NCBI RefSeq assembly: GCF_018326265.1
Contig: NZ_AP023360.1
Span: 846,501-910,500 of the forward strand
Length of the DNA stretch: 64,000 nt
Reading direction: 5' to 3'
Source: Catellatospora sp. IY07-71
Lineage (GTDB): Bacteria; Actinomycetota; Actinomycetes; Mycobacteriales; Micromonosporaceae
Shown here: piece by piece, positions 2,833 through 19,091 of the stretch
Layout: every line of letters begins with the position of its first letter
Position numbering within the stretch: position 1 is the stretch's first letter
Program-made: the position numbers and the translations under genes
The notes under the pieces: generated by a model
What the model saw: only the letters and a program-made list of their open reading frames with translations
What the model was told of the DNA's origin: nothing
Database searches by the model: none

Positions 2833-5397
2833 ATGCGCGCTCGCGCACTGGCCGCGCTGGCTCTGTCGTCCGCGGCCGTCGTGATCCCATCGTCCACCGC
2901 CCAGGCCGTCCCGCAGCAAGCCGCGCCCGCCGCCGCACCGGTGACGGCGCAGGCCGCCGCGCCGCTGACCGGCGTCATCACCGGCAAGGTCACCGACGGC
3001 GCCGGCGCGCCGCTGCCCGGCGCCTGCGTGACCGCGGTCGCCGCCAGCCTGCAGACCCTCGGCCGCGCCTGCGCCGGCGACGACGGCCGCTACCGCATCG
3101 ACAACGCCCGCAACAGCGTCATCTACCTGCGCGCCGACGCCGGCGGGCACACCACCTGGGCGCCGGACCGGCTGGACCGGGTCACCGCCACGCACATCGG
3201 GGTGACCACCGGCGAGACCGTGACCGTCGACCTCGTCGTCGAGCAGCGGCACGGCATGCTGCGCGGCACGGTCAGCCGCCAGGACGGCACGCCCGCCAAG
3301 TTCGCCAACGTCTCGCTGTACCGCGAGGGCGCTCCCGGGACCCGGATCGGCATGATGATCGCCCGGGACGGCGCCTTCACCTGGTCGCTGCCGGTCGGTC
3401 GCTATCTCGTCTCCTACGGCGGCAGCGGCTACAACACCACGGAATGGCACCCGGGCGTGCCGAACGTGGGTGCCGCGACGGCCGTCGAGATCACCGAGAA
3501 CGGCACCGTGGAGATCGCCGAGCGCTTCCTGCCGGCCGACCCTATGCCACCGGCGCCCACGGAACTGCTGCACCGCGGCTACATCACGGCCCAGCCCGAC
3601 GGCGCGCCGGTGGCCGGCGCCACGGTCAGCCTGTACAGCCAGTCGCTCGTCCACTGGGGCACCGTGCAGACCGCCGCCGACGGCGAGTGGCGGCTGCCGC
3701 TGCCGTCCGACCTGCGCCTGATCACCACGGTTTCGGCGCCCGGATACGCGACGGTCTGGGGATTCGACGATCCCGAGCCGATGATCGGGCAGGTCATGCT
3801 TCCGCCCACCCGCCTGCGGCCCGGCTCCGGCGGCCTGCGGGTGACGGTCCGGGACCATGACGGCGGGTCGCTCGTGCCCACCGCCACCGCTCTGCTCAAG
3901 ATGGTCGACACCGGCTACAGCTGGGACTACACCCTGCCGGTCCGGTTCGACGGGACGATCGACCTGCCGAACCTGCCGGCGGGGCGGTACAAGCTCAAGA
4001 TCACGCCGGCGGCCGACCCGATCCGGGCGACCCAGTGGTATCCGGCCGCGCTCGACGAGGCCTCCGCCGAGGTGATCACCGTCTCGGACGGGCAGACCAC
4101 CGAACTCGCCACCTCGCTGCTCGGCCCCGGCCGGGTCGAGGTGAAGGTGGTGGACGCGGTCACCGGCGCGCCCATCAAGGACGCCTGCATGTCCATCGCC
4201 GACGTGGACGCCTGCACCGACGCCGACGGCATCCGCCGCGCCGACGTCGGCTGGGAGGTCAAGAAGCATTCGCTCCAGGTCGAGCACCTGCCCTACCACT
4301 TCACCACGACCAGTTCCTTCGACGCCAAGCCGGGTCAGCTGGTCAAGGTCACGGTGCCCATGCAGCCGGGCGCGGTCGTGGCCGCGGCCTACGAGGACAA
4401 GACCGGGCATGACGGCTCGTCCGGGGTCTGCGTGGACGCCGTACGCGGCGTCTGGGGCGACGTGATCGCGGAGGACGACAAGGTCTGCGGATCGCTCACC
4501 CCCGGCAACAAGGTGCTGCTCGGCCCCTTCCACCCCGGCCGGGTCCAGCTCTTCGTGCACCCGACCGTCACGACGGGTGCGCAGTGGCTGGGTCACCTCG
4601 GCGGCACGGGCGACCGGCGCACGGCGGCAACACTGGACCTGCACGCCGGCTTCATCACCACCGCCCCGAACATCGTCGCGCTGGGCTACGGCCGGATCGA
4701 CGGCCGCATCCAGTTCCCGAACGGTGACGACGCCCTGTTCGGCTGCGCCGAGGTCGCGCCCCGGATGTCGTCCTGCGCCGAGGACGGGGGCTATTTCAGC
4801 ATCCCGTACCTCGGGCCCTACACCTGGACGCTCACCTACCAGGGCGGGGCCTTCTACCGCGTACGCACGGGCGAGGCCGGAGCGCCGGGCAACTTCACCG
4901 TGAAGGTCGGCCAGAGCACCCCCGCCTGGGTGAAGCTCATCCCGGGCACCTCGGTCTACAACATCGACAACGGCAACGTGAACAGCGAGATCGACGCGTT
5001 CGACGCGTACACCGGACGCCTGCTATACAGCACCAGCGGGGGCACGCTGGCGCTGCCGGCGAACCGGATCGTGGTCTTCCGGCTGCGGTATGGCAGCGCC
5101 CAGAACCCGCTCAGCTGCTGGGCGCACCTGTCCACCCGGAAGGGCAGCACGCCGTACTACATGGTCGGCACGGAGCCGCTCAGCCCGTTCCGCATCGACC
5201 CGGCCAAGAACTGCCTGAACCGGGAGCCGGTGCGGCTGACCGGGCCGGTCGCACCGCTGCCGGGTCCGGTGCCCGCCACGATGTTCGCCGCCGCCCCGGC
5301 CGGTTCGGCCGGCACGAGCACCGCGGTGACGGGTGGCGGGGCCGCCTCGCCGTGGGGTGTGCCCACGGCCGCCCGGCTTGCCCGGGTCAAGCCCTAG
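2833..5397 (+). CDS. Secreted CnaB/carboxypeptidase-regulatory-like repeat protein, array member 1
   Basis: 854 residues; function not known. A Sec signal peptide is likely (Arg at 2 and 4, hydrophobic 6-20, cleavage after AQA about residue 25). The mature part is a chain of beta-sandwich repeats of the form GxVTDGAGxPLPGACV...DGRYRI, as in carboxypeptidase-regulatory and CnaB domains, which are usually binding or stalk modules. Ten cysteines lie in five spaced pairs (GACV/RACA, DACM/DACT, GVCV/KVCG, FGCA/SSCA, SCWA/NCLN). The family motif QWLGxxGGTGxR is near residue 585. There is no LPXTG motif and no C-terminal membrane helix, so it is probably released. The C terminus SPWGVPTxARLARVK is shared with member 2. 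RBS GGGAGGA is seven bases before the ATG. Confidence 0.85.
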   Translation: MRARALAALALSSAAVVIPSSTAQAVPQQAAPAAAPVTAQAAAPLTGVITGKVTDGAGAPLPGACVTAVAASLQTLGRACAGDDGRYRIDNARNSVIYLRADAGGHTTWAPDRLDRVTATHIGVTTGETVTVDLVVEQRHGMLRGTVSRQDGTPAKFANVSLYREGAPGTRIGMMIARDGAFTWSLPVGRYLVSYGGSGYNTTEWHPGVPNVGAATAVEITENGTVEIAERFLPADPMPPAPTELLHRGYITAQPDGAPVAGATVSLYSQSLVHWGTVQTAADGEWRLPLPSDLRLITTVSAPGYATVWGFDDPEPMIGQVMLPPTRLRPGSGGLRVTVRDHDGGSLVPTATALLKMVDTGYSWDYTLPVRFDGTIDLPNLPAGRYKLKITPAADPIRATQWYPAALDEASAEVITVSDGQTTELATSLLGPGRVEVKVVDAVTGAPIKDACMSIADVDACTDADGIRRADVGWEVKKHSLQVEHLPYHFTTTSSFDAKPGQLVKVTVPMQPGAVVAAAYEDKTGHDGSSGVCVDAVRGVWGDVIAEDDKVCGSLTPGNKVLLGPFHPGRVQLFVHPTVTTGAQWLGHLGGTGDRRTAATLDLHAGFITTAPNIVALGYGRIDGRIQFPNGDDALFGCAEVAPRMSSCAEDGGYFSIPYLGPYTWTLTYQGGAFYRVRTGEAGAPGNFTVKVGQSTPAWVKLIPGTSVYNIDNGNVNSEIDAFDAYTGRLLYSTSGGTLALPANRIVVFRLRYGSAQNPLSCWAHLSTRKGSTPYYMVGTEPLSPFRIDPAKNCLNREPVRLTGPVAPLPGPVPATMFAAAPAGSAGTSTAVTGGGAASPWGVPTAARLARVKP

Positions 5398-5430
5398 AAC
5401 GGCACTGACCCGTCGCGGCGGGTCGAACCT

Positions 5431-5468
5431 GGGCCGTGCCGGTGCGCCTCGGTGCACCGGCACAGCCC
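5431..5468 (+). terminator. Stem-loop after array gene 1
   Basis: GTGCCGGTGC (5436-5445) pairs with GCACCGGCAC (5454-5463), extended by GGGC/GCCC outside one mismatch. There is no T run, as is common for GC-rich actinomycete terminators. Confidence 0.6.
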
Positions 5469-5496
5469 AACTGCTTCATGACCTGCGGCGACCCGC

Positions 5497-5523
5497 TAAG
5501 GTGAGCGCCGCTCACACGGGGAG
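5497..5523 (+). promoter_or_regulatory. -10 hexamer, GTGAG/CTCAC inverted repeat and RBS before array gene 2
   Basis: TAAGGT (5497-5502) is followed by GTGAG (5501-5505), five bases, CTCAC (5511-5515) and ACGGGGAGG before ATG 5529. It matches the element at 2796 in order and sequence although the spacer is shorter. Confidence 0.5.
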
Positions 5524-5528
5524 GCTCC

Positions 5529-8105
5529 ATGCGCAGAGCTGCGCTGGCGGCGCTGGCCATACTGGCCGCGGCCGTCGTGATTCCGGCATCGTCACAGGCG
5601 GCACCGTCACCCGCCGCCGCGGCACCGTCACCCGCCACGGCCGCGGCGCCGCGCGCCGCCGCGCCCGCCGCCGGCCGGATCAGCGGCCGGGTGACCGACG
5701 TCGCGACCGGCACGCCGATCGCGGGGGCCTGCGTCACGGCGTACTACTACACCGCCTACCAGGTGCACGGATACGCCTGCACCGACGCCGACGGCGGCTA
5801 CACTATGGACAACGTCCAAGGGGGCAACTTCTACCTGCAGGCCCGGCTCGGGGAGCAGACCCTGTGGTGGCCGGGTGTAATGGACCGGGCCTTCGCCTCC
5901 GGCGTCAGCACCTTCGGCACCGCCGTGGTCGCCGACTTCGCGATCGAGCGCCGCACGGGCACGGTGCGCGGCACCCTGACCCGCCAGGACGGCGGCGCGG
6001 CCTGGTACGGCGCGGTCCGCCTGTACCGGCCGGGCGCGACCCAGGCCGTCGTGGTCGTCACCACGCTCGACGGCGGCTCCTTCGTCCGAGCCGGCGTGCC
6101 CGCCGGGGAATACCAGGTCGCCTTCGGCGGCAGTGGTTACGCCACGCAGTGGTATCCCGGCAAGGCCGATCGTGCGGAGGCCGCCACCGTCACCGTCACC
6201 GAGGGCGGCACGGTCGAGCTCACGGAGCAGTTCCGCGCGGTGGACCCGATGCCCGCGCTGCCGGAGATGTCCACCGTCCACGGCACCGTCACCGCGGCGG
6301 GCACGCCCGTCGCGGACGCCCGGGTCGACCTGTTCGGTCTCGGCATGCTGCCGCTCGGCGGCACCAGGACCGACGGCGAGGGCCGCTACCAGATCCCGAA
6401 CGTCCGGACCGGCATCCCCGTGTGGACGCGGACGACAGCCCCCGGCTACGCCACGACGTGGAGCATCGACGACCCGGAGCCGTACACCCAGCGCACCGTG
6501 GGCTCCGCCGCACTCGACGTCAAGCTGGGCGCCAAGCCGGGGCGGCTGACCGTCCGGGTGGTCGACCACGACGGCGCGCTGCCCTTCCCGGGCACCACGC
6601 TGACCCTCACCGACCTCGCCGGCACCTGGACCTACACCATGCCGGTCCGCTTCGACGGGACCGCCGACCTGCCGGAGCTGCCGCAGGGCGAGTACCAGCT
6701 GAAGGTCCTCCCCCGGGTCCCCTCGGGCGTGTCCCGGCCCGCGCAGTGGTATCCGGGCAAGCTGACCGCCGCCGAGGCGCAGACCGTCACCGTCACCGGC
6801 GGCGCGACCACGGCGCTCACCGAGACCCTCGTCGGCCCGGCCGTCGTCGAGGTCACCCTGCTCGACGCGGTGACCGGCGCGCCCGTCTCCGGCGCGTGCG
6901 TGCAGATGGCCGACCGCGTCTGCGCCGATGACGGCGGCGTCTACCGCCTACGGGCGCAGGACCTGCAGAAGGGTCCCCGCCAGCTCTACGTGACGCACGA
7001 GCCGTACCACTACCCGATGCAGAGCTCGGCCGTCGCCGGACCGGGCGAGGTCGTCAAGGTGACCCTGCGGATCCAGCCCGGGGCGGTGATCACCACCACC
7101 TACCGCGACACGATCAACAAGACCGAGCTCCCGCCGGTGTGCGTGCACGCGGTGCGCGGGACGTGGGGCGACAAGCTCGCCGACAACCGCGTCTGCGCCC
7201 AGCCGGACGCCGACGGCAGGCTGCTGCTGGGGCCCTTCCAGCCGGGCCAGGTGCAGCTGTTCGTCGAGCCGCGCGATCTCATCGGCGCCCAGTGGCTCGG
7301 CCGCACCGGCGGCACCGGCGACCGGCACACCGCCGCCCTCCTCGACCTGAGGACGGGCGAGATCACCGACGCCCCGGAGATCGTCGTGCAGCGGGGCCGC
7401 GCGATCTCCGGCACCCTCCGCCGGGCCGAGAACGGCCAGCTCGCCACCACCGCCTGCGCGACGGCGGGGCCCGAGCTCTACAGCTGCCCCGGTGACGGGC
7501 TGTATCGGCTGGACAACCTCGGCCCGTACGACTGGAAGATCACCTACTCCGACGTGACCAGCCCGGCGATCCGCACCGGAGAGCAGGGCGCTCCCGCGCG
7601 CACCGACCTCACCGCGGCCTCGGTGTCCGGTGCGGACGCCTGGCTGAGCTACGGCACCTGGGTGCCGGTCGCCGTCGCCGGCGCGACGGCTCCCACGCAG
7701 ATCACGGCGTACGACGCGTACACCGGGATCACGCTCAGCGGCGCGTCCGGCGGCAGCGGCGTGCGTGTCCCGGCGAACCGGGCCGTGGTGCTCAGGGCGC
7801 AGCACGGCGACACCGTCTGCTGGGCCTACTTCGGACTGGGCAACCGGCGCACGCCGTACCTCGCGGTGGGCACCGAGCAGGTCAAGCAGATCACCCTCAC
7901 CATCGGGAAGAACTGCCTGGCCCGCGAGCCGTTCCGGAGCCCGGTCCGCATGCGGCCGCTGCCCGGCCCGGTCGTGGTCAAGACCTTCGCCGGGTCGCCC
8001 TGGCTGCGCGGGGTCACCGGGCGCGGCGTCGACACGAGCAGCCCCACGGTGTCCTCGCCGTGGGGCGTGCCGACGGACGCCCGCCTGGCCCGGGTGAAGA
8101 ACTGA
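5529..8105 (+). CDS. Secreted CnaB/carboxypeptidase-regulatory-like repeat protein, array member 2
   Basis: 858 residues, the closest paralogue of member 1 over its whole length. The signal peptide is residues 1-24 (cleavage after SQA), followed by an Ala/Pro linker. Repeats with GRVTDVATGTPIAGACV and DGGYTM motifs recur. Ten cysteines fall at the same relative places as in member 1. The QWLGRTGGTGDR motif lies near residue 590. Two QWYPGK motifs (about residues 208 and 408) echo the NTTEWHPG and TQWYPA segments of member 1. It ends SPWGVPTDARLARVKN without an anchor. RBS GGGGAGG is five bases before the ATG. Its ligand is unknown; a role in extracellular adhesion or polymer binding would only be a guess from the fold. 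Confidence 0.85.
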   Translation: MRRAALAALAILAAAVVIPASSQAAPSPAAAAPSPATAAAPRAAAPAAGRISGRVTDVATGTPIAGACVTAYYYTAYQVHGYACTDADGGYTMDNVQGGNFYLQARLGEQTLWWPGVMDRAFASGVSTFGTAVVADFAIERRTGTVRGTLTRQDGGAAWYGAVRLYRPGATQAVVVVTTLDGGSFVRAGVPAGEYQVAFGGSGYATQWYPGKADRAEAATVTVTEGGTVELTEQFRAVDPMPALPEMSTVHGTVTAAGTPVADARVDLFGLGMLPLGGTRTDGEGRYQIPNVRTGIPVWTRTTAPGYATTWSIDDPEPYTQRTVGSAALDVKLGAKPGRLTVRVVDHDGALPFPGTTLTLTDLAGTWTYTMPVRFDGTADLPELPQGEYQLKVLPRVPSGVSRPAQWYPGKLTAAEAQTVTVTGGATTALTETLVGPAVVEVTLLDAVTGAPVSGACVQMADRVCADDGGVYRLRAQDLQKGPRQLYVTHEPYHYPMQSSAVAGPGEVVKVTLRIQPGAVITTTYRDTINKTELPPVCVHAVRGTWGDKLADNRVCAQPDADGRLLLGPFQPGQVQLFVEPRDLIGAQWLGRTGGTGDRHTAALLDLRTGEITDAPEIVVQRGRAISGTLRRAENGQLATTACATAGPELYSCPGDGLYRLDNLGPYDWKITYSDVTSPAIRTGEQGAPARTDLTAASVSGADAWLSYGTWVPVAVAGATAPTQITAYDAYTGITLSGASGGSGVRVPANRAVVLRAQHGDTVCWAYFGLGNRRTPYLAVGTEQVKQITLTIGKNCLAREPFRSPVRMRPLPGPVVVKTFAGSPWLRGVTGRGVDTSSPTVSSPWGVPTDARLARVKN

Positions 8106-8146
8106 CCTAAAGCGAGCCGCCCGTGACGAGGGCTCCAAACGCGATC

Positions 8147-8176
8147 GTGCCCGGTGCGCCGCAGCGCACCGGGCAC
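8147..8176 (+). terminator. Perfect 13-bp stem-loop after array gene 2
   Basis: GTGCCCGGTGCGC (8147-8159) and GCGCACCGGGCAC (8164-8176) pair perfectly around a four-base loop, 41 bases after the stop. Confidence 0.8.
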
Positions 8177-8242
8177 CTCCATGTCACGCCTTATACAGCG
8201 CATCCTGGCCGTTTCGGTGATCCGTGTCGGTTCCCCGACAGC

Positions 8243-8277
8243 TAACGTGATCGCGATTCATCACGGGGAAAGAGGAT
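8243..8277 (+). promoter_or_regulatory. -10 hexamer, CGTGAT/ATCACG inverted repeat and RBS before array gene 3
   Basis: TAACGT (8243-8248) overlaps CGTGAT (8246-8251), which is mirrored by ATCACG (8260-8265) after eight bases, then GGGGAAAGAGGA before the TTG start at 8282. This is the third copy of the arrangement at 2796 and 5497; the arms differ in their outer base. Confidence 0.5.
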
Positions 8278-8281
8278 CATC

Positions 8282-10786
8282 TTGCGATTCCTGCTGCTTG
8301 AAAAAAGATCCAGGCTCGGTGCGGTGGCGGCGTCCGCCGCGCTGGTGAGCTCCCTGGCGGTGGCGCTGCCGGCGGCCGTCGGCGCGGCCGAGCCGCCCGC
8401 CCTGATGACCGGCCTCATCACCGACGCGGCCACCGGCCAGCCGGTGCCGGGCGCCTGCATGGAGCTGGAGCACCCCACCTTCCTGACCCTCGTCGCCAAG
8501 GCCTGCGCGGGCGCCGACGGCCGTTACACCATCCCGGGCAAGGCCGCCTCGCCGGTCAACGTGCGGACCCACGTGTACGCCGACGGCTACGGCGACCGGT
8601 GGCTCACCAAGGTGAGCCGCTACGAGTCGGTGGCGATGCCGCTCAAGGTCGGCACGACGACCGTGCGCGACGTCGCGCTCAGCCGGGCGTCCGGCACGCT
8701 GCACGGCACGCTCCGCTTCCCCGACGGCACGCCGGTGGGGCTCATCGCCGTATGGGTGTATCCGGAGGCCGCCGGGTCGCTGATGATCGCCGCGACGCGG
8801 ACCGCGCCCGACGGCACCTGGAGCGTGCCGAACCTGCCGCCGGGGGCGTACCGCCTCGCCGTCAGCAGTGGCGTCCTGGAGTCGACCGGGCCCTTCACGG
8901 TGACCGACGGCGGGAGCACCACCGCGGACGTGACCTACCCCGGTTCGGTGCTGGTCTGGCGCACGCTGCACGGCACGGTGCGCGACACCGGTGCCCAGCC
9001 GGTGGCCGGGGCCCGCGTCTCGCTGTGGTTCCCCGGATACGGCGAGGTCGGGTCGGTGAACACCGACGCGGCCGGCGGGTACAGCTTCCCGAAGGTCGCG
9101 AGCGGACTGCTGTACGAGCACCGGATCGTCGTCACCGCGCCGGGCCGCGCCGCGACGTGGAGCGGCGACCGCCCCCACCCGCAGTCGTCACCGCCCTTCC
9201 AGCAGCTGGGCACCTCCGACCTGTTCGACTTCACGCTCCGCCCGAGCGCGGCGACGGTGAGCGGCAGGCTCACCGACGGGACCGGTGACCCCGTGGTCAC
9301 CACGGTTCAGCTGCGGCAGAGCAACGGCTCGCTGCACAGCGAGTACAGCGCGCCCGACGGGACGTACCGCTTCCCCAACGTGTGGCCGGACCAGGTGACG
9401 CTGAACTACACGACCACCGGGCCGAAGCAGTTCGCCGCGCGGAAGCTGTCCGAAGCCGAGGCCGACAAGTACACCGTCGCCGCCGGGGCCGCCGTGACCG
9501 TCGACAACCAGCTGTTCGGGCCGACGGGCACCCTGGAGGTGCGGCTCGTCGACGCGGTCACCGGTGAGCTGCTCCCGAAGGCCTGTGCGCTCATGTCGGG
9601 CAACCAGCAGTGCGTGCCGGGCGGGATCCAGCGGTTCGAGGGCCTGCTGCCGGGGCCGCGTGCGGTGACCGGCCAGGCGTGGCCGGTGGCGGCGAACGCC
9701 ACCGACTCCGTGACGGTGAACCCCGACGGGGTCACCGTGCTGACCCTGCGCCTGGAGCCGCTGACGCACGCCGAGTTCCGGGTCGCCCGCGACACCGACG
9801 GCACCGCGCCCGGGTTCTGCGTACGGCTCGTCGCCGTGTACGGCACCCCGCAGCCGGCCAGCGTCCAGCAGATCTGCAACTACGCCAGCGGCACCGCGCC
9901 CGGCGACGGCATCATCACCACCGTGCCCGCCGGTCGCTACCAGGCGCTCGTCGAGCCGCAGGACACCACCCGCTACGGCCGTCAATGGCTGGGCGCGGAC
10001 GGCGGCACCGGACGGCGCGCCGAGGCTGCCGTGCTCGACTTCCGTCCTGGCAAGGGCGCCACGGCTCCCGTCATCAAGCTGGACGGCGCGGGCTCCATCC
10101 GCGGCCGCATCGACAGCGTGTTCAAGACCGAGACGCCGCGCTGCGTGCGGTACGCGCCGATGGCCGTGACCGGGTACCTGGGCTGCGCCGCGCCCGGCAG
10201 CGAGTACCAGCTCACCGGGCTCGGGCCGTACGCCTGGGAGCTGGAGGTCAGCGACGGGGAGGCGGCGGCGGTGTGGTCCGGCGGCGCGCCCGACCGGTCC
10301 AAGGCGACCGGTGTCGTGGTGACCGCCGGGCAGACCACGCGGTTCGACCACACCCTGAAGGTCGACGACTCGCGCATCAAGCTGCTCGTCGCGGACCCCT
10401 CGGCGAGGGTGACCGTGTACAGCGCCGTCACCGGTGACGAGCTCGGCACCACGCAGGGCAGCTCGATGCTGACGGGCCTGCCCGCCGGGCGGGTCTACCT
10501 GCACTACGACGGCAGCGTGGACTGCTGGTACGGCCAGCGGACGACCGCCACGCCCGACCGCGCGCAGCGGGTCGGCGGTGCGCTGAACCTGCCGGTGGCC
10601 GTGGCGGTCGGGCTCGACATCAAGCCCGGCGTCAACTGCTTCGCGGCCCGCCCGCAGCTGTGGAACCCGGCCGACCGGTTCCGCTTCTCCGTGGACGTGC
10701 AGGGTCAGGTCGCCACGGCGGTCGCCGCCGCGGTGGACACGCTGAGCCCGCGCACCGCCCAGCGGTCCGGCCGGGCCGCTTCCTGA
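8282..10786 (+). CDS. Secreted CnaB/carboxypeptidase-regulatory-like repeat protein, array member 3
   Basis: 834 residues from a TTG start preceded by AGAGGA at five bases. The N terminus (MRFLLLEKRSRLGAVAAS) and a long hydrophobic stretch to about residue 38 (VGAA) look like a Sec signal. Repeats read GLITDAATGQPVPGACM, GTVRDTGAQPVAGARVSLW and GRLTDGTGDPVVT. Members 3, 4 and 5 form a subgroup with a LTHAEFRVARDTDGT-CVRLVAVYGTPQ block and the motif YGRQWLGADGGTGRR. Ten cysteines are paired as in members 1 and 2. No sorting signal is visible. The product is probably released and multidomain; its function is unknown. Confidence 0.85.
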   Translation: MRFLLLEKRSRLGAVAASAALVSSLAVALPAAVGAAEPPALMTGLITDAATGQPVPGACMELEHPTFLTLVAKACAGADGRYTIPGKAASPVNVRTHVYADGYGDRWLTKVSRYESVAMPLKVGTTTVRDVALSRASGTLHGTLRFPDGTPVGLIAVWVYPEAAGSLMIAATRTAPDGTWSVPNLPPGAYRLAVSSGVLESTGPFTVTDGGSTTADVTYPGSVLVWRTLHGTVRDTGAQPVAGARVSLWFPGYGEVGSVNTDAAGGYSFPKVASGLLYEHRIVVTAPGRAATWSGDRPHPQSSPPFQQLGTSDLFDFTLRPSAATVSGRLTDGTGDPVVTTVQLRQSNGSLHSEYSAPDGTYRFPNVWPDQVTLNYTTTGPKQFAARKLSEAEADKYTVAAGAAVTVDNQLFGPTGTLEVRLVDAVTGELLPKACALMSGNQQCVPGGIQRFEGLLPGPRAVTGQAWPVAANATDSVTVNPDGVTVLTLRLEPLTHAEFRVARDTDGTAPGFCVRLVAVYGTPQPASVQQICNYASGTAPGDGIITTVPAGRYQALVEPQDTTRYGRQWLGADGGTGRRAEAAVLDFRPGKGATAPVIKLDGAGSIRGRIDSVFKTETPRCVRYAPMAVTGYLGCAAPGSEYQLTGLGPYAWELEVSDGEAAAVWSGGAPDRSKATGVVVTAGQTTRFDHTLKVDDSRIKLLVADPSARVTVYSAVTGDELGTTQGSSMLTGLPAGRVYLHYDGSVDCWYGQRTTATPDRAQRVGGALNLPVAVAVGLDIKPGVNCFAARPQLWNPADRFRFSVDVQGQVATAVAAAVDTLSPRTAQRSGRAAS

Positions 10787-10789
10787 CGG

Positions 10790-10827
10790 GACGGCGAGGA
10801 GCCCGCGACGCCGGGCTCCTCGCCGTC
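10790..10827 (+). terminator. Perfect 16-bp stem-loop after array gene 3
   Basis: GACGGCGAGGAGCCCG (10790-10805) and CGGGCTCCTCGCCGTC (10812-10827) form a 16-bp perfect stem with a six-base loop, beginning four bases after the stop codon. Confidence 0.85.
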
Positions 10828-10895
10828 GCAGGCCGTCACCGGCCTTCCACACCAAACTCCCCCTGCCTGGCACCTCCTCGGCTTGGAGATCCACC

Positions 10896-13442
10896 GTGCC
10901 CCACCGACTGTCCCGCGCCGCCGCGACGGCCGCCGCCACCCTGCTGGTGGCGTCGCTCGCGGTCGCCCCCACCGGAGCCGCCGCCGCGGATCCACCCCCG
11001 GTCCGCCTACAGGGCGTCGTCACGGATGCCGCCACCGGAGCGCCGGTCCCCGGCGCCTGCGTCGAGATCGTCCACGCGAGCTACCTGCACCGGCTGGCCG
11101 AGGTCTGCGCCGACGCCGAGGGCCGCTATGCGCTGCACACCTGGATGATGAGCAACTCGGTCAGCGTGTTCGCCCGCGCCCACGCCGCCGGGTACGCCGA
11201 CTCGTGGTCCGGCACGGTGCGCAACCGCAACGTCCTGCCCCCGCTGAGCCTCTCCTTCGCCAACGTGCCCACCCGCAACTTCCAGCTCGGCAGGCAGGCC
11301 GGGACGCTGCAGGGCCGGGTCACCTACCCGACGGGCTACCCGGTCGGCCTGAACCTGGTCACCGTGGTGCACGACGAGAACGTGTCGGTGCGGGCCGGGC
11401 AGGTCTACACGGCGCCCGACGGCACCTGGGCGCTGCCGAACCTGGCCCCGGGCCGGTACCGGGTGAGCGTGGGCACGGTCGTCCAGACCGGACCCTTCAC
11501 CGTCACCGACGGCGCCGCCACCATCGCCGACGTGGCGCTCAGCAGCCAGCCCCCGCGTGACCCCGTCGGGCTGGGCGGCACCGTACGCGACTCCGACGGC
11601 ACCCCCGTCACCGGCGCGCGGGTCTCGCTGTGGACGACGGGGTACGGCGACGTCGCCACCGTGTCCACCGACGGCGACGGCGCCTACCGGTTCCCCGCGC
11701 TGGTCTCCACGCCCAGCGTGATGCGCCTGGTGGCGCGCGCGCCCGGGTTCGCCGAGGAGTGGTCCGGCGGCAAGCCGCATCCCGCCTCGGCGACGCTGCT
11801 CACCAGCCTGCCGCAGGCGGAGAACGGATACACCGGCGACTTCACGCTGCGGCAGCTGACCGGCACGGTGGCCGGCAAGATCGTCGATGACGCCGGCCGG
11901 CCGATCCTGACCTCGGTCAGCATCATGAACGGCACGACGGTCGTACACACCGGGCACAGCGGACCGGACGGCCGTTACCGGTTCACCAACGTGCGGCCCG
12001 GCGAGTTCACCCTGAGCTTCGGCACCGGCGGCCCGACGCAGTACGCCTTCCACCGGCTCACCGCGGCCGAAGCCGACCGGTACAGCGTCGCGCCCGGCGC
12101 CGAGCTCACCGTGGACCAGGAGCTCTACGGCCGGACGGGGGTGCTGGAGGTGCGCACCGTCGACGCCGACAGCGGCGAGCCGGTCTCGGCCGGCTGCGTC
12201 CGGGCCGGTGGCTACACCCTGTGCGACGGCGCCCCGGTGCACACCGTGGAGCGGCTGTGGCCGGGTGTGCACGAGGTGTCGGTGGCCGCCGACACGTTCA
12301 CCCAGTCCGCGGTCGCGTCGGTGATGGTCGCGGCCACGGGCGTCACGGTGCTGACCGTGCCGGTGCGCGCGCAGACGCACGGCGAGCTGCGGGTGGCACG
12401 CGACACCGACGGCACCGTCCCGGCCGTCTGCCTGCGCTTCGTCGCGGTGTACGGCACCCCGCAGCCCGGTCCGATCCTGCAGTGCAACAACACGACCGGC
12501 ACCGCACAGGAGGTCGCCAGGTTCAGCATGCCGCTCGGGCGTTACCGGGCGTTCGTGTTCCCCGCCGACCAGACCCGCTACGGCAAGCAGTGGCTGGGCC
12601 CCAACGGCGGCACCGGCGAGCTGGACAAAGCCGCCGTGCTGACCTTCCGGAACGCGGCGCGGACCATGCTGCCCACGGTCAGGCTGGACGGCGTGGGCGC
12701 GCTGCACGGCTTCGTGCACAACGAGTTCGTCAAGGACGGCCTCACCGGCTGGCGGTCGGTCAGCTACCTGCCGCACGAGATCGACCAGGGCACGCTCGGC
12801 CTCGACGAGTACGCCGAGTACCAGATCACGGGGCTGGGCCCGTACGCCTGGCAGCTGGAGTTCAGCGGCTGGGGCGCCGCGACCACCTGGTCCGGCGGCG
12901 CGCCCGACCGCTCCACGGCGCTCGCCGTGCAGGTCACCGAGGGCGGCAGCACCCGCTACGACATCCGGCTCACGCGGCCGGAGTCCACGCTCACCACTAC
13001 CGTCACCACCGTCAACGGCAGCTCGCCGGGCACGGGCCGGACGACGGTCCACAGCGCCGTCACCGGTGACGCGGGCGCGGTCACCTCGACCACCGCCGGC
13101 TCCAGCGCCCGCAACCTCGCCCCCGGCCCGGTCTACCTGCACTACCAGGACGACTGGACCTCCTGCTGGGCACGGGTGCAGCCGCGACCCGGACACCCCG
13201 GCGCACGGTCACAGCTGGTCGGCGGCGCGCTCCAAATCGGCGTGGCACGGCAGCACCACTTCGTGATCAGACCGGGCGTCAACTGCCTGCCGGACGCGCC
13301 GCTGCTGTTGGCCGGCCGCGGGCTCGGCACGCGGCAGGACCTCCAGCTGCGGCTCGCCGACGCGGTCGCCACGGCGGCGGCGGCGGTGACCCGGCCGGCC
13401 GGGGCCGCACCGGGCCGCGCGACGGGGCCTGGCCGGCCGTGA
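10896..13442 (+). CDS. Secreted CnaB/carboxypeptidase-regulatory-like repeat protein, array member 4
   Basis: 848 residues from GTG 10896, with TTGGAGA seven bases upstream. Signal peptide 1-31 (cleavage after AAA|DPP). It has the same repeat order as members 3 and 5 (GVVTDAATGAPVPGACV; GTVRDSDGTPVTGARVSLW; GKIVDDAGRPILT; YGKQWLGPNGGTG). It has only eight cysteines: the pair that reads RCVRYA and GCAAP in member 3 is replaced together (WRSVSYLP and GTLGLDEY), which argues that the two are disulfide partners. It lacks the GTGAG/CTCAC element of members 1-3. Member 5 follows after 68 bases with no terminator, so 4 and 5 may be one transcript. Confidence 0.85.
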   Translation: MPHRLSRAAATAAATLLVASLAVAPTGAAAADPPPVRLQGVVTDAATGAPVPGACVEIVHASYLHRLAEVCADAEGRYALHTWMMSNSVSVFARAHAAGYADSWSGTVRNRNVLPPLSLSFANVPTRNFQLGRQAGTLQGRVTYPTGYPVGLNLVTVVHDENVSVRAGQVYTAPDGTWALPNLAPGRYRVSVGTVVQTGPFTVTDGAATIADVALSSQPPRDPVGLGGTVRDSDGTPVTGARVSLWTTGYGDVATVSTDGDGAYRFPALVSTPSVMRLVARAPGFAEEWSGGKPHPASATLLTSLPQAENGYTGDFTLRQLTGTVAGKIVDDAGRPILTSVSIMNGTTVVHTGHSGPDGRYRFTNVRPGEFTLSFGTGGPTQYAFHRLTAAEADRYSVAPGAELTVDQELYGRTGVLEVRTVDADSGEPVSAGCVRAGGYTLCDGAPVHTVERLWPGVHEVSVAADTFTQSAVASVMVAATGVTVLTVPVRAQTHGELRVARDTDGTVPAVCLRFVAVYGTPQPGPILQCNNTTGTAQEVARFSMPLGRYRAFVFPADQTRYGKQWLGPNGGTGELDKAAVLTFRNAARTMLPTVRLDGVGALHGFVHNEFVKDGLTGWRSVSYLPHEIDQGTLGLDEYAEYQITGLGPYAWQLEFSGWGAATTWSGGAPDRSTALAVQVTEGGSTRYDIRLTRPESTLTTTVTTVNGSSPGTGRTTVHSAVTGDAGAVTSTTAGSSARNLAPGPVYLHYQDDWTSCWARVQPRPGHPGARSQLVGGALQIGVARQHHFVIRPGVNCLPDAPLLLAGRGLGTRQDLQLRLADAVATAAAAVTRPAGAAPGRATGPGRP

Positions 13443-13510
13443 CCGTTTTCATGACCCCGACTCGCGGCCGCCGCCAGCCTGACTCGACCCCACGGCAAAC
13501 AGGAATGACC

Positions 13511-16030
13511 ATGGACCTTCGCAACCTGTCGCGGATGGCCGCGACCGGCCTCACCGCGCTGCTCGTCACCTCACTCGCCTACGCACCGGCCGCCGCCGTG
13601 GCCGAGCAGCCGCCCGCGCTGCTGGAGGGGCGCATCACCGACGCGGCCACCGGTGCCGGTCTCGCCGGCGCCTGCGTCGACCTGGAGAACACCACCTTCC
13701 TCGGCACGATCACGAGCGTGTGCGCGGGCGCCGACGGCCGGTACGCGCTCGACGCGCGGCTGGTGACCAACCTCAACGTGCGCACCCGCGCCCACGCGGA
13801 GGGCTACGCCGACGGGTGGGGCCTGGGCTACCGGCACCGCTTCGGCTCCGGCATCGCCGGCCTGGTGCCGGGTGCCACCGTCGTACGCGACTTCGCGCTG
13901 AGCCGCGAGGCGGGCGTGCTGCGGGGCACCCTGCGCTACCCGTCCGGCGACCCGGCGAGCCTGGTGACGCTGGAGATCCGCGCGAACGCCGACGGCACCC
14001 CGGCGGTCGCCCGCGTGCGCACCGGGCTCGACGGCACGTGGGAGCTGCCGAACACGGCCCCGGGCGGCTACCGCGTCACGTCCACCTTCAGCACCCCGGC
14101 GCTGGACGCCGGACCCTACGCGGTGACCGCCGGGGCCACCACGACCGCGGACCTGACCCTCGTCGACGACGCACCGGAGCTCGTGGAGCTGTCCGGCACC
14201 GTCCGTGATGCCGCGGGCGAGCCGGTGCCCGCCGCCCGGGTCACGCTGTGGCTGCTCGGATACGGCGACGTGTGGTCCGTCGAGGCCGACGCCGCGGGCC
14301 GTTACGCCTTCCCGCGGGTCCCCTACGACTACGTGGGTCAGCACTTCCTGGTGGCTCGCGCACCGGGCTTCGCCGACGTCTGGACCGGCGACAAGCCGCA
14401 CCCCCAGTCGGCGTACCGCCTGTGGGCGGTGCCGGAGCGTCCGGGCGGCTGGACGGTCGACTTCGTGCTGCGCCCTGCGCCGGGGACCGTCGTCGGCACG
14501 CTGACGGATGCCGCCGGCCTGCCCGCGATGGGCCAGGTCCAGCTCCGGCAGAGCACCGGCGGGGCGCTGCACACCGTCGTGAGCGGACCCGACGGCCGCT
14601 ACCGGATCCCGAACGTCCGTCCCGGGGAGGTCACGGCGCAGTACGTCACCGGCGGCCCGCTGCAGTACGCCGCCGGCAAGGTGACCCTGGCCGAGGCCGA
14701 CGTGTACCCGGTGGCCCCGGGCGCGACCGTCACCGTGGACAACCGGCTGCACGGCCGCACCGGCGTGCTGGAGGTCCGCACCGTCGACGCGGTCTCCGGC
14801 GCGCTGGTGGCGGCGTGCGTGTGGACCGACGGCACCCGCAAGTGCGATCCCTCCGGCGTGCACCGGTTCGACGGGCTGCTGCCCGGCACGCGCAGCGTCA
14901 CCGCCGACGCCTGGCCCGTCCACTCGGGCCTGGGCGAGAACGTCGTGGTGCGTCCCGACGGCGTCACCCCGATGACCCTCAAGCTGGGCCCGCTGACCCA
15001 CGCCGAGGCCCGGGTCGCCCGCGCCGCCGACGGCACGCTGCCGGCCGTCTGCGTGCGGCTGGTGGCGGTGTTCGGCACCGCGCAGTGGGCCCCCGACGCG
15101 AAGCACTTCTGCAACCACGACGGGGCCGGCGGCGAGGTGCGGGAGTCGTTCGGCACCACCGTGGAGCCGGGCCGCTTCCAGGCGTTCGTGGAGCCCCACG
15201 ACACGAGCCGCTTCGGCCGGCAGTGGCTGGGCGCGACCGGTGGCACCGGCCGCCGGGCCCAGGCCGCCGTCCTCGACTTCCGCCAGGGCAAGGGCAGTGC
15301 GCTGCCCACCATCACCGTGGACGGGTCCGGCGGCATCCACGGCCGGATCGACAGCCCTCTGCCAACCGAGGGCGCGCGCTGTGTGCGCTACGCGCCGAAG
15401 TTCCTCACCGGCGACGGGGCGTGCGCCGAGCCCGGCGCGGATTACTCGATCACCGGCCTGGGGCCGTACGAGTGGGAGCTGGAGATCAGCGACAAGCTCC
15501 ACCAAACGGCTTTGACCTGGTCCGGTGGGGCGAGCGACCGCACCACCGCGGCAGGTGTCAAGGTGACCGCGGGCCAGACCACCCGGTTCGACCAGACGCT
15601 GCGGGTCTGGGGCTCGCGGATCGTCGTCGGCGGCCCCGACGAGTGGGCCGTGATCACCGCGCACAGCGCGATCACCGGTGACGAGGTCGCGATGTCGGAT
15701 TCGCGCCAGGACTGGACCCTGTGGGGCCTGCCCGCCGGCCCGGTGTACCTGCACTTCGCCGGTGCGACCGACTGCTGGTATCGCGTCGGCGCCCGCCCGT
15801 CGGACGCGTGGGACCGTGCCCAGCGGGTCGGTGGAGCGCTGACCGTGCCGGCCGACGGGATCGCGTACATCACCGTCAAGCCCGGCGTGAACTGCTTCCC
15901 GCGCACGCCCACGCTGCTGTCCCCGGCGGGCGGGCCGAGCCTGTCCGGTGACCTGCGGGCCGAGGTGACCGCGGCCGTGACGACCGCGGTGCGCACGCTC
16001 ACCGCGGGCACGCGCCGCCCGGCACGGTGA
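13511..16030 (+). CDS. Secreted CnaB/carboxypeptidase-regulatory-like repeat protein, array member 5
   Basis: 839 residues from ATG 13511, chosen because AGGA lies six bases upstream and a signal peptide (MDLRNLSRMAATGLTALLVT, cleavage after about residue 34) follows at once; longer in-frame starts at 13505 and 13439 lack this fit. Repeats and the subgroup block LTHAEARVARAADGT-CVRLVAVFGTAQ match member 3 most closely, as does FGRQWLGATGGTGRR. All ten cysteines are kept. The C terminus is LTAGTRRPAR with no anchor. A strong two-way terminator follows and separates the array from nuoH on the other strand. Confidence 0.85.
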   Translation: MDLRNLSRMAATGLTALLVTSLAYAPAAAVAEQPPALLEGRITDAATGAGLAGACVDLENTTFLGTITSVCAGADGRYALDARLVTNLNVRTRAHAEGYADGWGLGYRHRFGSGIAGLVPGATVVRDFALSREAGVLRGTLRYPSGDPASLVTLEIRANADGTPAVARVRTGLDGTWELPNTAPGGYRVTSTFSTPALDAGPYAVTAGATTTADLTLVDDAPELVELSGTVRDAAGEPVPAARVTLWLLGYGDVWSVEADAAGRYAFPRVPYDYVGQHFLVARAPGFADVWTGDKPHPQSAYRLWAVPERPGGWTVDFVLRPAPGTVVGTLTDAAGLPAMGQVQLRQSTGGALHTVVSGPDGRYRIPNVRPGEVTAQYVTGGPLQYAAGKVTLAEADVYPVAPGATVTVDNRLHGRTGVLEVRTVDAVSGALVAACVWTDGTRKCDPSGVHRFDGLLPGTRSVTADAWPVHSGLGENVVVRPDGVTPMTLKLGPLTHAEARVARAADGTLPAVCVRLVAVFGTAQWAPDAKHFCNHDGAGGEVRESFGTTVEPGRFQAFVEPHDTSRFGRQWLGATGGTGRRAQAAVLDFRQGKGSALPTITVDGSGGIHGRIDSPLPTEGARCVRYAPKFLTGDGACAEPGADYSITGLGPYEWELEISDKLHQTALTWSGGASDRTTAAGVKVTAGQTTRFDQTLRVWGSRIVVGGPDEWAVITAHSAITGDEVAMSDSRQDWTLWGLPAGPVYLHFAGATDCWYRVGARPSDAWDRAQRVGGALTVPADGIAYITVKPGVNCFPRTPTLLSPAGGPSLSGDLRAEVTAAVTTAVRTLTAGTRRPAR

Positions 16031-16097: not shown

Positions 16098-17054
16098 TCA
16101 GGCCAGCGCCACCCGCACACCGGCGGTGAGGATCAGCTGGAACAGCGCCAGCGGCACCAGGACCAGCCAGCACAGCCGCTGCAGCTGGTCCTCGCGCAGC
16201 CGGGGCCAGGACACCCGGAGCCAGATCACCACGAACGCCACCAGGCCGGTCTTGAGCAGCATCCACAGCCAGCCCACGCTGTCCGCCCACGGGCCGTGCC
16301 AGCCGCCGAGGAACAGCGCCGCGGTCAGCGCGGAGATCACCACGATGCCGACGTACTCGGCGAGCAGGAAGAACGCGAAGCGCAGGCCGGTGTACTCGGT
16401 CATGTAGCCGAAGACCAGCTCCGAGTCGGCGATCGGCATGTCGAACGGGGGCCGCCGGATCTCGGCCAGCCCGGCGACGAAGAAGACCACCATCGCGGGC
16501 AGCTGCCACAGCAGCCACCACGGCTGCCAGGCGGCCACGATGCCGGGCAGGCTCAGCGTGCCGGCGGCCATCGCCACGCTGGCCGCGGCGAGCACGAACG
16601 GCAGCTCGTACCCGAGCAGCTGCGCCGCTGCCCGCAGGCCGCCGAGCAGCGAGTACTTGTTCGCCGAGGACCAGGCGGCCATCAGCACCGCGATCACGCC
16701 GATGCCGACCACGGCGAGCACGAAGAACAGGCCGACGTCGAGCTGCTGCCCGACCAGGTCGCCCGGCCCGAGCGGGATGACCAGCAGCACCAGCAGGTAC
16801 GGCAGCAGCGCCACCGCCGGGGCCAGCCGGAACACCGGCCCGTCGGCGTCGCGCGGGGTGATGTCCTCCTTCTGCGCGAACTTCACCCCGTCCGCGATGA
16901 GCTGCGCCCAGCCGTGGAACGCGCCCGCGTACATGGGCCCGAGCCGGGACTGCATGTGCGCCATCACCTTGTGCTCGGTCTGCCCGACCAGCAGCGGCAG
17001 CGTCAGGAACGCCACCGCCACCAGCGCCACTCTGAGAACGATCTCCCAGGTCAT
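16098..17054 (-). CDS. nuoH: NADH-quinone oxidoreductase subunit H
   Basis: 318-residue membrane subunit that joins the peripheral and membrane arms and helps form the quinone site. Eight or so helices are visible. Family motifs: RLGPMYAGAFHGWAQLIADGVKFAQKEDI (residues about 37-65), AAAQLLGYELPF (about 142-153) and RPPFDMPIADSELVFGYMTEYTG (about 200-222). The last differs from the more usual EAESELVAG, as in divergent second complex I copies. The start ATG overlaps, as ATGA, the end of a 24-codon mini-ORF that fills the gap to nuoC. The gene is 13 kb from nuoI, with the secreted-protein array between. Confidence 0.95.
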   Translation of the reverse strand: MTWEIVLRVALVAVAFLTLPLLVGQTEHKVMAHMQSRLGPMYAGAFHGWAQLIADGVKFAQKEDITPRDADGPVFRLAPAVALLPYLLVLLVIPLGPGDLVGQQLDVGLFFVLAVVGIGVIAVLMAAWSSANKYSLLGGLRAAAQLLGYELPFVLAAASVAMAAGTLSLPGIVAAWQPWWLLWQLPAMVVFFVAGLAEIRRPPFDMPIADSELVFGYMTEYTGLRFAFFLLAEYVGIVVISALTAALFLGGWHGPWADSVGWLWMLLKTGLVAFVVIWLRVSWPRLREDQLQRLCWLVLVPLALFQLILTAGVRVALA

Positions 17055-17125
17055 GCCGCCGCTCCGCTCCGCTGCGCGACGCCATGGCCACCGGCCGCCA
17101 AGATTCGCTCGCTGCGCTCGCTCAT
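17051..17125 (-). CDS. 24-codon mini-ORF filling the nuoC-nuoH gap (MSERSER type)
   Basis: ATG 17125 overlaps the nuoC stop as ATGA, and the stop at 17051-17053 overlaps the nuoH start as ATGA. The peptide is MSERSERILAAGGHGVAQRS plus GAAA, and the DNA contains GCGAGCGCAGCGAGCG direct repeats. It sits exactly where nuoD (and E, F, G) would normally be. It may only keep ribosomes moving from nuoC to nuoH, or may be an inserted short repeat; a functional peptide is not shown. Confidence 0.4.
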   Translation of the reverse strand: MSERSERILAAGGHGVAQRSGAAA

Positions 17126-17682
17126 GACTGCGGCCCCCACTCCCCCGGCGCGGGCACGCCCGGCGGGCGGATCGCCTGGCGCTTCGAGCCGGTCTCCGAC
17201 TCGCCCGGCTCCTTGGCCCCGGGCCACGGCTTGGCGACCCGGCTGGCCAGCACGAAGCTCTTGCGCAGCGGGTGGCCCTCGAACTCCGGCGGCAGCAGCA
17301 ACGGCTCCAGCGGGCCGGGGAAGCCGATGCCGAACATCTCGTACGTCTCCCGCTCGTGCCAGGCCGCGCCGGGGTAGACCGCCACGGCCGACGGCAGCGA
17401 CGCGCCCTCGGCAGGCACCCGGGTGCGCAGCAGCACGCCGTGCCGCTCGGTGGTGGACCACACGTGCGCCACCACGTCGTAGCCGGCGTCCAGCTCGTCC
17501 ACGGCGGACAGCCAGTCGAAGAAGTCGCAGGACAGCCCGTCCCGCGCGGCGGTCAACGCCGCGACCCACTGCTCGGCGGGCACGTCCACGGTGGCGCGGG
17601 CGTACGCCCCACCGCCGGACACTCCCGCCTGGGCGCCCGCCACCAGCTCGCTCAGGCGCGCCCCGATCTCCTCCGGCGTCAT
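17122..17682 (-). CDS. nuoC: NADH-quinone oxidoreductase subunit C (30-kDa subunit)
   Basis: Peripheral-arm subunit of complex I, 186 residues. The signature region AAWHERETYEMFGIGFPG (about residues 108-125) and the LLPPEFEGHPLRKSF segment are typical of the 30-kDa family. Start 17682 is chosen because TAGGAT lies seven bases upstream, fitting a leaderless transcript; ATG 17691 would add three residues. The C terminus is a hydrophilic tail after the conserved core. nuoD, the usual next gene, is absent. The ECF sigma gene on the plus strand diverges from this start. Confidence 0.94.
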   Translation of the reverse strand: MTPEEIGARLSELVAGAQAGVSGGGAYARATVDVPAEQWVAALTAARDGLSCDFFDWLSAVDELDAGYDVVAHVWSTTERHGVLLRTRVPAEGASLPSAVAVYPGAAWHERETYEMFGIGFPGPLEPLLLPPEFEGHPLRKSFVLASRVAKPWPGAKEPGESETGSKRQAIRPPGVPAPGEWGPQS

Positions 17683-17782
17683 GCCCGGCATCCTATGCCC
17701 GCGAGTGCCCGCCACGCCCCTGTCCGGCCGCGGCGGACGGCGGCGGACCGCCCGTGACCGTGCGGGCTGTGCTGCGCGGGCC

Positions 17783-17804
17783 AACGGCTCCGCCGGGTTT
17801 CGTT
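17783..17804 (+). promoter_or_regulatory. Possible ECF-type promoter before the sigma factor gene
   Basis: AAC (17783-17785), 15 bases, CGTT (17801-17804), 41 bases before the GTG start. AAC and CGTT are the usual cores of ECF -35 and -10 elements, so autoregulation is possible. The same AAC-N15-CGT spacing precedes the second sigma gene at 58939. A TATGCT at 17804 is an alternative vegetative -10. Confidence 0.35.
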
Positions 17805-17845: not shown

Positions 17846-18358
17846 GTGGCCGGACACCGCGATTTCGCGGAGTTCTACGCGGCCGCGTTCCACCCGCTGG
17901 CCACGCAGCTGTTCCTGCACACCGGGAGCGCCGCGGAGGCGCAGGACGTGGTGCAGGAGGCCATGTGCCGGGCCTACGACCGGTGGAGCAGCGTCGCCGA
18001 GCACGATGATCCGGTGGCCTGGGTGCGCCGCGTGGCGTGGAACCTGGCCACCAGCCGGTGGCGGCGGGTGCGCCGGGGGATCGAGCTGATCACCCGCGAC
18101 CGGCTGGTTGAATCGACGCCGGGCCCCAATCCCGACCGCATCGCCATCGCGACCGCGCTGGCGACCCTGCCCGCCCGGCAGCGGCAGGCGGTCATCCTGC
18201 ACTACCTCGAGGACCTGCCGATCGCCGAGATCGCGGCGCTCACCGGGGCCGCCGAGGGCACGGTCAAGTCGTGGCTGCACCGCGCGCGGCATACGCTGGC
18301 GTCCCGGCTCAGCGAGGCGCTACCGGCGGCGGAGGAGGAGGAGGTCGACCGTGTCTGA
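17846..18358 (+). CDS. ECF RNA polymerase sigma factor (SigE/SigM-like)
   Basis: 170 residues from GTG 17846 with CGGAGA about six bases upstream. Region 2 is residues 7-75 (FAEFYAAAFHPLATQL, DVVQEAMCRAYDRW, WVRRVAWNLATSRWRR); region 4 is 101-155 (ALATLPARQRQAVILHYLED, IAEIAALTGAAEGTVKSWLH), the latter the helix-turn-helix for -35 recognition. There is no region 3. The gene overlaps the next one by eight bases, so a membrane protein is made with it and is the likely regulator. The sigma pair separates nuoC from nuoB. Confidence 0.92.
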   Translation: MAGHRDFAEFYAAAFHPLATQLFLHTGSAAEAQDVVQEAMCRAYDRWSSVAEHDDPVAWVRRVAWNLATSRWRRVRRGIELITRDRLVESTPGPNPDRIAIATALATLPARQRQAVILHYLEDLPIAEIAALTGAAEGTVKSWLHRARHTLASRLSEALPAAEEEEVDRV

Positions 18359-19091
18359 GCTCGACCCCGTCCGGGACGCCTTCGGCGACGCCCGCAGCAG
18401 CCTCAAGGGCGCCTTCGTCCCGGCGGGCGTGGACGCGGTGCTGGGCACCGTGCGCCGACGCCGGATCCGCCGCCGGGCCGGGGCCGTCGCGGTGATCGCG
18501 GCGTTCGCGGCGCTCGCCGTGGCGGTCCCGTGGGCCAATCGCAGCACGCCCCCGGCGGTGCCCGGTCCCAGCCCGAGCGCGTCGCCCAGTGAGCTGCCGC
18601 AGCCCGCGCCCACGCCGACCGCCGAGGAGATCGACGGTGCCGGCGCCGGGCCCAAGCCCACCTGCCGGGCGAAGCCGGAGGCGTATGTCGAGGGCGCGGG
18701 CGCGGCCGGGGACCACGAGGTCACCATGGGGCTGACCGACGCGTCGACGTTCTGCGCGGGCAGGAAGGTCAAGATCTTCTGGGCGTCGTACGCGTGCCAG
18801 GCCGACGGCACCCAGGACCTCGTCGAGCACGAGACGTTCCAGCTGACGCCCGGCGACCGGTCGGTGACCACCACGGTGCGCTGGCCCGCCGATCCGGAGA
18901 ACCTGGGCGTCCGGGTCATCTACGTGGTCGGCGACCTGGCCGTGCTCTCGGAGATCCCGGTGGGCAAGCGGCAGCAGTATCCGTACTGGACCCGGGCCCG
19001 GGGCAGCGGCGCGTTCGCCAACCACACCATGGGCGACATGCGCTGCGGCCCGCCACCGTCGGCGACCCCGAGCGCGAGCCCGAGCGCCTGA
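18351..19091 (+). CDS. Single-pass membrane protein coupled to ECF sigma factor; candidate anti-sigma factor
   Basis: 246 residues from GTG 18351, which overlaps the sigma factor's last codons. An N-terminal cytoplasmic part of about 35 residues ends in RRRRIRRR, followed by a membrane helix (about 42-62), a Pro/Ser/Thr linker (to about 95) and an extracytoplasmic domain with four cysteines (TCRAK, TFCAG, ACQAD, RCGPP). No zinc-binding HxxxCxxC anti-sigma motif is present, so anti-sigma function is inferred only from position and topology. The C terminus is PSATPSASPSA. The fused protein at 58939 has the same order of parts in one chain. Confidence 0.75.
   Translation: MSELDPVRDAFGDARSSLKGAFVPAGVDAVLGTVRRRRIRRRAGAVAVIAAFAALAVAVPWANRSTPPAVPGPSPSASPSELPQPAPTPTAEEIDGAGAGPKPTCRAKPEAYVEGAGAAGDHEVTMGLTDASTFCAGRKVKIFWASYACQADGTQDLVEHETFQLTPGDRSVTTTVRWPADPENLGVRVIYVVGDLAVLSEIPVGKRQQYPYWTRARGSGAFANHTMGDMRCGPPPSATPSASPSA

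Follow-up and report, generated by a model that had tools for sequence, protein, structure and literature searches.

What are five large exported proteins doing inside an incomplete complex I cluster? The question is raised by the window analyzed here, a stretch of 64,000 nucleotides from Catellatospora sp. IY07-71, whose genome is an 8.6 Mb contig. It contains a second, incomplete nuo cluster (nuo2), in which five + strand paralogues of 834-858 aa occupy the space from nuoI to nuoH and are oriented opposite to the nuo2 genes. The latter lie on the − strand: nuoJ (1696-2211), nuoI (2208-2726), which flanks the array as the divergent neighbor of its first gene, nuoH (16098-17054), which flanks it as the convergent neighbor of its last gene, nuoC (17122-17784), and nuoB (20452-20973). 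The array opens with P1 (2833-5397, 854 aa), a secreted CarboxypepD_reg repeat protein ending in PTAARLARVKP, and P2 (5529-8105, 858 aa), ending in PTDARLARVKN; these two form subgroup alpha. Subgroup beta comprises P3 (8282-10786, 834 aa, TTG start), P4 (10896-13442, 848 aa, GTG start), and P5 (13505-16030, 841 aa, or 839 aa if the ATG at 13511 is used). The genes are separated by 131, 176, 109, and 62 bp. The starts of P1 and P5 are our choice, the mechanical open reading frames being longer.

Other genes share the neighborhood. Inside nuo2, the interval between nuoC and a DUF2252 gene holds an ECF sigma factor gene recognized by Pfam (17846-18355) and then a gene with no Pfam match (18345-19088). 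The DUF2252 gene (19096-20403) stands beside nuo2 and, by sequence appearance, is also present in loci of the genera labeled g4 and g54 (the genus of the array is g1, and its genome G000). Similar-looking ECF genes occur at nuoB in Micromonospora loci (L126, L047).

To which family do the five proteins belong? Their strongest Pfam match is in every case CarboxypepD_reg (PF13620), with 109-123 bits against a cut-off of 32.3 and four to five stretches in each protein; CarbopepD_reg_2 exceeds its own Pfam cut-off in P1, P2, and P4. The original prediction described the proteins as CnaB-like, and this holds for the fold and for relatives of that domain, since SpaA passes in P2 (29.6 vs 23.1) and SdrD_B in P3 and P4 (34.3 and 42.6 vs 29.7), but not for Pfam CnaB itself, which is not listed up to an E-value of 1 for any of the five. 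Against solved structures, a sequence profile matched SdrD best (3.6e-9) and also NOMO2 (1.2e-7). Nothing in NCBIfam reaches a cut-off in the five proteins, and the Kustd1514 family S-layer glycoprotein profile (NF052345) gives 18.3-36.2 bits vs a cut-off of 1400, so they are not members. Membership among the alpha-2-macroglobulins is not supported either: bMG3, listed for four of the proteins, scores 14.6-28.9 bits vs 34.9, and no thioester domain is listed.

The absence of a recognizable enzyme domain, noted beforehand, agrees with the Pfam and NCBIfam results. The one match that passes, Dioxygenase_C in P4 (30.7 vs 27.3; under the cut-off in P3 and P5), falls on the 33 residues 216-248 and spans 33 of 182 profile positions; the identification of P4 as an intradiol dioxygenase was rejected, and the match is read as a stray one to a single beta-sandwich bead. 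A competition system, also proposed, finds no backing, as none of the five proteins matches an anti-phage defence (PADLOC) or phage (PHROGs) profile at E 0.01 and no toxin family appears in their Pfam or NCBIfam lists. In the libraries searched, the proteins were placed in no characterized family with a known role, just as the original prediction had been unable to match them to a described system; among the titles and beginnings of abstracts covered, mostly of freely available papers, nothing was found on the array protein family.

More can be said about shape. AlphaFold models of P2 and P3, built on 14 sequences, consist of nearly all strands (mean pLDDT 76.2 and pTM 0.60 for P2, 80.1 and 0.61 for P3). 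The predicted mature protein is a string of beta-sandwich beads, about eight by our count from the strand order, locked by disulfides. Foldseek ranked the TIE protein first, followed by alpha-2-macroglobulins, pilins (PitA, BcpA), and SdrD, with S-layer chains lower; the TM-scores over the query are 0.06-0.16, so that beads match and whole chains do not, and such matches support the fold class and no function. An extracellular layer or the binding of a polymer, both suggested at the outset, would fit the predicted bead-chain fold.

How would these chains leave the cell, and what could hold them there? The N-termini of all five are hydrophobic with AxA-type sites, features from which signal peptides were called without a predictor, and to this extent the proteins look secreted, as expected. 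The expectation that wall and membrane anchors are lacking was also supported: no LPxTG-like motif occurs in the last 80 residues of the five proteins, and there is no C-terminal membrane segment, the maximum 19-residue hydropathy being 1.3 within the last 120 residues (an internal stretch of P4, at 472, reaches 1.97). The motif reported as QWLGxxGGTGxR stands in all five as QWLGxxGGTG, but its final R fails in P4, which continues EL; it is one form of a Trp element (e.g., QWYPG, QWLG) that recurs along P1 and P2 and in the family.

Cysteines are the other regular feature, with 10 in P1, P2, P3, and P5 and 8 in P4, that is, five presumed pairs per protein and four in P4, where both members of one pair are missing. 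In the family alignment, tolerating a shift of one or two columns, both cysteines, one, or none were counted at columns 510/530 in 67, 2, and 0 of 69 proteins, at 431/440 in 51, 1, and 14, at 55/70 in 19, 0, and 2, at 616/630 in 31, 5, and 33, and at 754/789 in 30, 6, and 27. This co-occurrence as pairs speaks for disulfides. The alignment of the five proteins contains no invariant Lys column, so that a conserved isopeptide bond is not indicated.

Is the position inside nuo2 an accident of this genome? With profile A2 at E 1e-30 and six candidates scored per genome, at least 69 of 150 genomes of the Micromonosporaceae have a family member, and at least 146 have the nuoI of nuo2. At least 17 of the member-bearing genomes, from five genera (g1, g61, g4, g54, g10), carry one in or beside nuo2. 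By-eye reading of the family and nuoI match lists puts a member at most 15 kb from nuoI, with both on one contig, in at least 16 of them (G000, G002, G003, and G007; G072, G093, G111, and G124; G013, G113, and G173; G065, G090, G133, and G147; G019); the 17th is G156, where nuoI is on a separate contig and the member is flanked by nuoB and the DUF2252 gene. A calculation by hand (150 listed members × 30 kb over ~8.5 Mb) gives about 0.5 genomes within 15 kb by chance.

The spots occupied differ. Members stand between nuoH and nuoI in three genera: in g1, in g61 (three in G072, one of them reversed, three in G093, one in G124), and in the genus of G173 (two). The interval between nuoB and DUF2252 is occupied in G013, G113, G156, G133, and G065. 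In G147 the member has nuoB on one side and a dehydrogenase-like gene on the other, and that of G090 adjoins DUF2252. The G111 member, which matches less strongly (7.7e-53), separates nuoC from nuoH, and in G019, whose nuo2 is rearranged, the member is found some 4 kb past nuoH. All four g61 genomes examined have a linked member. The location in the nuo region is as first described, but it is no insertion peculiar to this genome, being old and common to other genera. The association of array and nuo2 is established for their positions on the chromosome, and putative for what they do. A further tandem trio of the family, adjoining a response-regulator-like gene, was seen in genome G138 (L136:425-6710).

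How did the array grow? Pairwise identity is 45% for P1-P2, 53% for P3-P5, and 46% for both P3-P4 and P4-P5; against P1, it falls to 31% (P3), 27% (P4), and 29% (P5). A midpoint-rooted FastTree of the core region, with 68 of the 72 family proteins (four were left out for short cover), recovers the two subgroups originally proposed. Its clade A unites all g1 and most g61 array genes, both G173 genes, the G019 gene, and two unlinked G000 paralogues (inner supports 0.57-1.0); clade B holds the g4 and g54 genes and the reversed G072 gene (support 0.997), and the G111 member falls outside both. Alpha and beta each contain g1 and g61 sequences, with join supports of 0.93-0.96 and 0.61, respectively, so that the first duplication, separating P1-2 from P3-5, is probably older than the split of the two genera; the stepwise duplication foreseen for the array is borne out in this form. 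The gene order is also that of G072, where alpha adjoins nuoI and beta adjoins nuoH.

The family is variable, as suspected. Among 11 genomes of the genus, the gap holds five copies in G000, three in G002, one each in G003 and G007, and none in seven, where 36-156 bp separate the matched ends of nuoH and nuoI. A nuoC-H-I tree places three empty genomes with G000 and G002 (support 100) and the other four with G003 and G007 (97, the inner nodes of this group being weak); with empty genomes in both groups, a single gain of the array would have to be followed by two or more losses. Its absence from seven of ten related genomes marks it as dispensable. Between G000 and G002, dN/dS is 0.40 for P1, 0.41 for P3, and 0.53 for P5, compared with 0.12 for nuoH and 0 for nuoI (few changes); for the G003-G007 pair it is 0.67. 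The array proteins evolve fast, if under constraint, next to conserved nuo genes. Silent-site difference is 0.375 for P5, 0.12 for P1, and 0.075 for nuoH, and given this higher divergence P5 and its G002 partner may not be orthologous in the strict sense. Among the five copies, recent duplication or gene conversion was rejected, the longest exact match between any two being 23 bases, and so was a mobile element in the array, for which gaps of 62-176 bp leave no space. Phage records contain nothing that matches P2 at 1e-5, and plasmid records contain nine matches to P3, all below 60% identity and none covering more than 80% of its length. The array is also a clear bacterial example of secreted-protein genes in tandem that evolve by birth and death.

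Elsewhere in the genome, a short reading frame at L108:8286-8957, a paralogue remnant ending PTPARIALVKP, lies just before a full paralogue (L108:9074-11179) that has a 13-base inverted repeat upstream, seen by eye; the remnant has a 76-aa counterpart in G002 (L114). The C-terminal tail PTxxR(L/I)A(L/R)VK(P/N) was considered as a sorting tag and rejected, occurring in 6 of 72 family proteins and being absent from P3-P5. A search of the 11 genus and 150 family genomes, with a pattern that covers some codon choices, gave seven distinct stop-ended matches, all in G000, G002, and G019; six are in family-profile genes, and the seventh (G002, L114) ends the 76-aa frame, which does not match the profile and resembles the remnant. 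Three further matches (G001, G034, G121) read TGG instead of the stop.

What controls these genes? Immediately upstream of the start of P1, P2, and P3, and of their counterparts in G002, G003, and G007, stands an element of the form TAxxGTGA...ACGGGGA. For P1 (2796-2822, +) it reads TAGGGTGA...CTCACGGGGA, a −10-like box and then a ribosome-binding site, and for P3 (8243-8269, +) the same element reads TAACGTGA...TCACGGGGA; that of P2 (5497-5524, +) is of the same kind by eye, with one base less between the halves, and falls outside a stricter pattern. With up to one mismatch, this pattern has two sites in the genome, those of P1 and P3, and no control matches. The element was not seen upstream of P4 and P5. 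A consensus scan found no sigma-70 promoter, and terminator-like sites number four vs a shuffled mean of 2.0 (sd 1.5).

A second signal is the word GATC(A/T)T. At 41-101 bases ahead of the start it occurs in 16 of 33 family genes, compared with 31 of 292 further genes from these loci (Fisher 6e-7), or 18 of 134 when the background is confined to genes with free upstream space (4e-5); these p-values are optimistic given the relatedness of the genes, the chosen starts, and the post hoc word. We selected the 33 genes from 72, together with their starts; they are related and some share an upstream region, the background includes one remnant gene, and the word was chosen after viewing the sequences. 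It is missing upstream in the other 17, including P2 to P5 and all g54 genes. An earlier word, GATCATC/GATGATC, was present in 12 of 33 family upstream regions, in three only or partly at −7 by the start, and in 12 of 291 other genes, at least three of which are themselves family or remnant genes. In Streptomyces, Gbn binds GATC followed by (A/T)T, and nuo2 is upregulated in the gbn mutant of S. coelicolor (PMC9239103). The words near the starts suggest control by a candidate Gbn-like chromosome protein. Control by an ECF sigma factor was also considered, ECF genes lying near nuoC and behind a distant paralogue; it was suggestive only, and was dropped. That paralogue (L107:7677-10317) ends in PTAARLALVKP and is followed after 16 bp by an ECF gene 60% identical to that of the window, the second of 34 non-self genome matches.

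What, then, is the array for? The reading preferred here, to which we give a probability of roughly 45%, is that an actinobacterial family of exported proteins with no recognizable anchor has expanded locally into the five genes, whose products form extracellular adhesive or matrix fibers, evolve by birth and death, and are perhaps expressed with nuo2. Its parts differ in strength: export, the bead-chain build, the disulfides, and diversification are well supported by the sequences and predicted models, and a role in adhesion or matrix assembly is what we infer from them. P1, P2, and P3 would each use their own start element, with P4 and P5 probably on the P3 transcript. The proteins would exit by the Sec pathway, lodge in the cell-wall matrix or surround hyphae or spores, and serve as fibers toward other surfaces or polymers, while shifting copy number and fast sequence change would diversify their binding targets.

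Could the chains instead be soluble or wall-associated carbohydrate-binding proteins that retain a polymer, whether a substrate or the cell's own glycan, so that it can be taken up or degraded, the beads serving as spacers and binding modules? Related beta-sandwich modules are frequently found with glycan-active proteins, the Trp element is repeated along P1 and P2, and PF14686 (polysaccharide lyase family 4 domain II) gives a weak match, under its cut-off. However, none of the five proteins has a carbohydrate-binding or glycan-active family at cut-off, and the array contains no other gene, its neighbor being nuo2; we consider this reading unlikely, though it comes closest to the preferred one. 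The neighbor itself invites another thought, that array and nuo2 are one module in which exported proteins and orphan NADH-dehydrogenase subunits are made together and act together at the envelope. Members at several nuo2 spots in five genera (nuoH/nuoI, nuoC/nuoH, nuoB/DUF2252, nuoB/dehydrogenase-like gene, 4 kb past nuoH), where chance gives about 0.5 genomes, speak for it, as does the effect on nuo2 expression in S. coelicolor of Gbn, which binds GATC(A/T)T (PMC9239103). Yet most nuo2 clusters have no member (nuoI in at least 146 of 150 genomes, the family in at least 69), the array genes are oriented against nuo, and shared descent from one or two old loci accounts for much of the linkage, which makes such a module improbable.

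The same geography could reflect a tolerant insertion site, as the nuoH-nuoI gap of other genera (L047:15136-16869; L126:10544-12674) holds unrelated genes that we take to be glutathionyl-hydroquinone-reductase-like, SnoaL-like, and Uma2-like. The array would then be an old passenger of a neutral, gene-collecting junction, duplicating and decaying, and the seven empty genomes of 11 agree with this. On the other hand, dN/dS below 1 in the compared pairs and five intact frames of five indicate genes under selection, and the order of alpha near nuoI and beta near nuoH is kept in G072; neutrality seems no more probable than the joint module. Slightly less probable again, and offered as speculation, is that the nuo2 of Micromonosporaceae is an envelope-development locus, in which an orphan membrane arm and diversifying exported bead-chain proteins stay together, in more than one place within the cluster, because both are produced and active at the same stage (e.g., building of the spore or aerial surface) under a GATC(A/T)T-binding protein.

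What the analysis supplies for an exported protein set of no known role is a location, a definition of the family, and a record of copy number. Moreover, the recurrence of its genes in nuo2, whose function is called unclear in print (PMC9239103), offers a testable handle on why actinomycetes retain a second, incomplete complex I cluster.

How do the locus and its proteins compare with known systems? The Streptomyces nuo2, described as an incomplete NADH-dehydrogenase cluster, lacks NuoCDEFG and L (PMC9239103); the nuo2 found here appears to correspond to it, with the differences that nuoB and nuoC are present and that secreted-protein genes split the cluster. The likeness to the Kustd1514 family S-layer glycoprotein (NF052345) is a weak profile match over the repeat domains (18-36 bits). 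Gram-positive pilins and MSCRAMM adhesins (PitA, BcpA, SpaC, SdrD) are among the best fold matches, with SdrD also the best sequence match among solved structures; unlike these sortase-anchored proteins, those of the array have no LPXTG, C-terminal membrane segment, or invariant Lys, and have cysteine pairs instead. Another comparison is with the CarboxypepD_reg (PF13620) repeat proteins, a Pfam name that carries no role, whose curated cut-off all five pass and with which they share beta-sandwich beads in a row; what sets the array proteins apart is their set architecture, their co-occurring cysteine pairs, their QWxGxxGGTG and GLGPYxW elements, and their home in nuo2.
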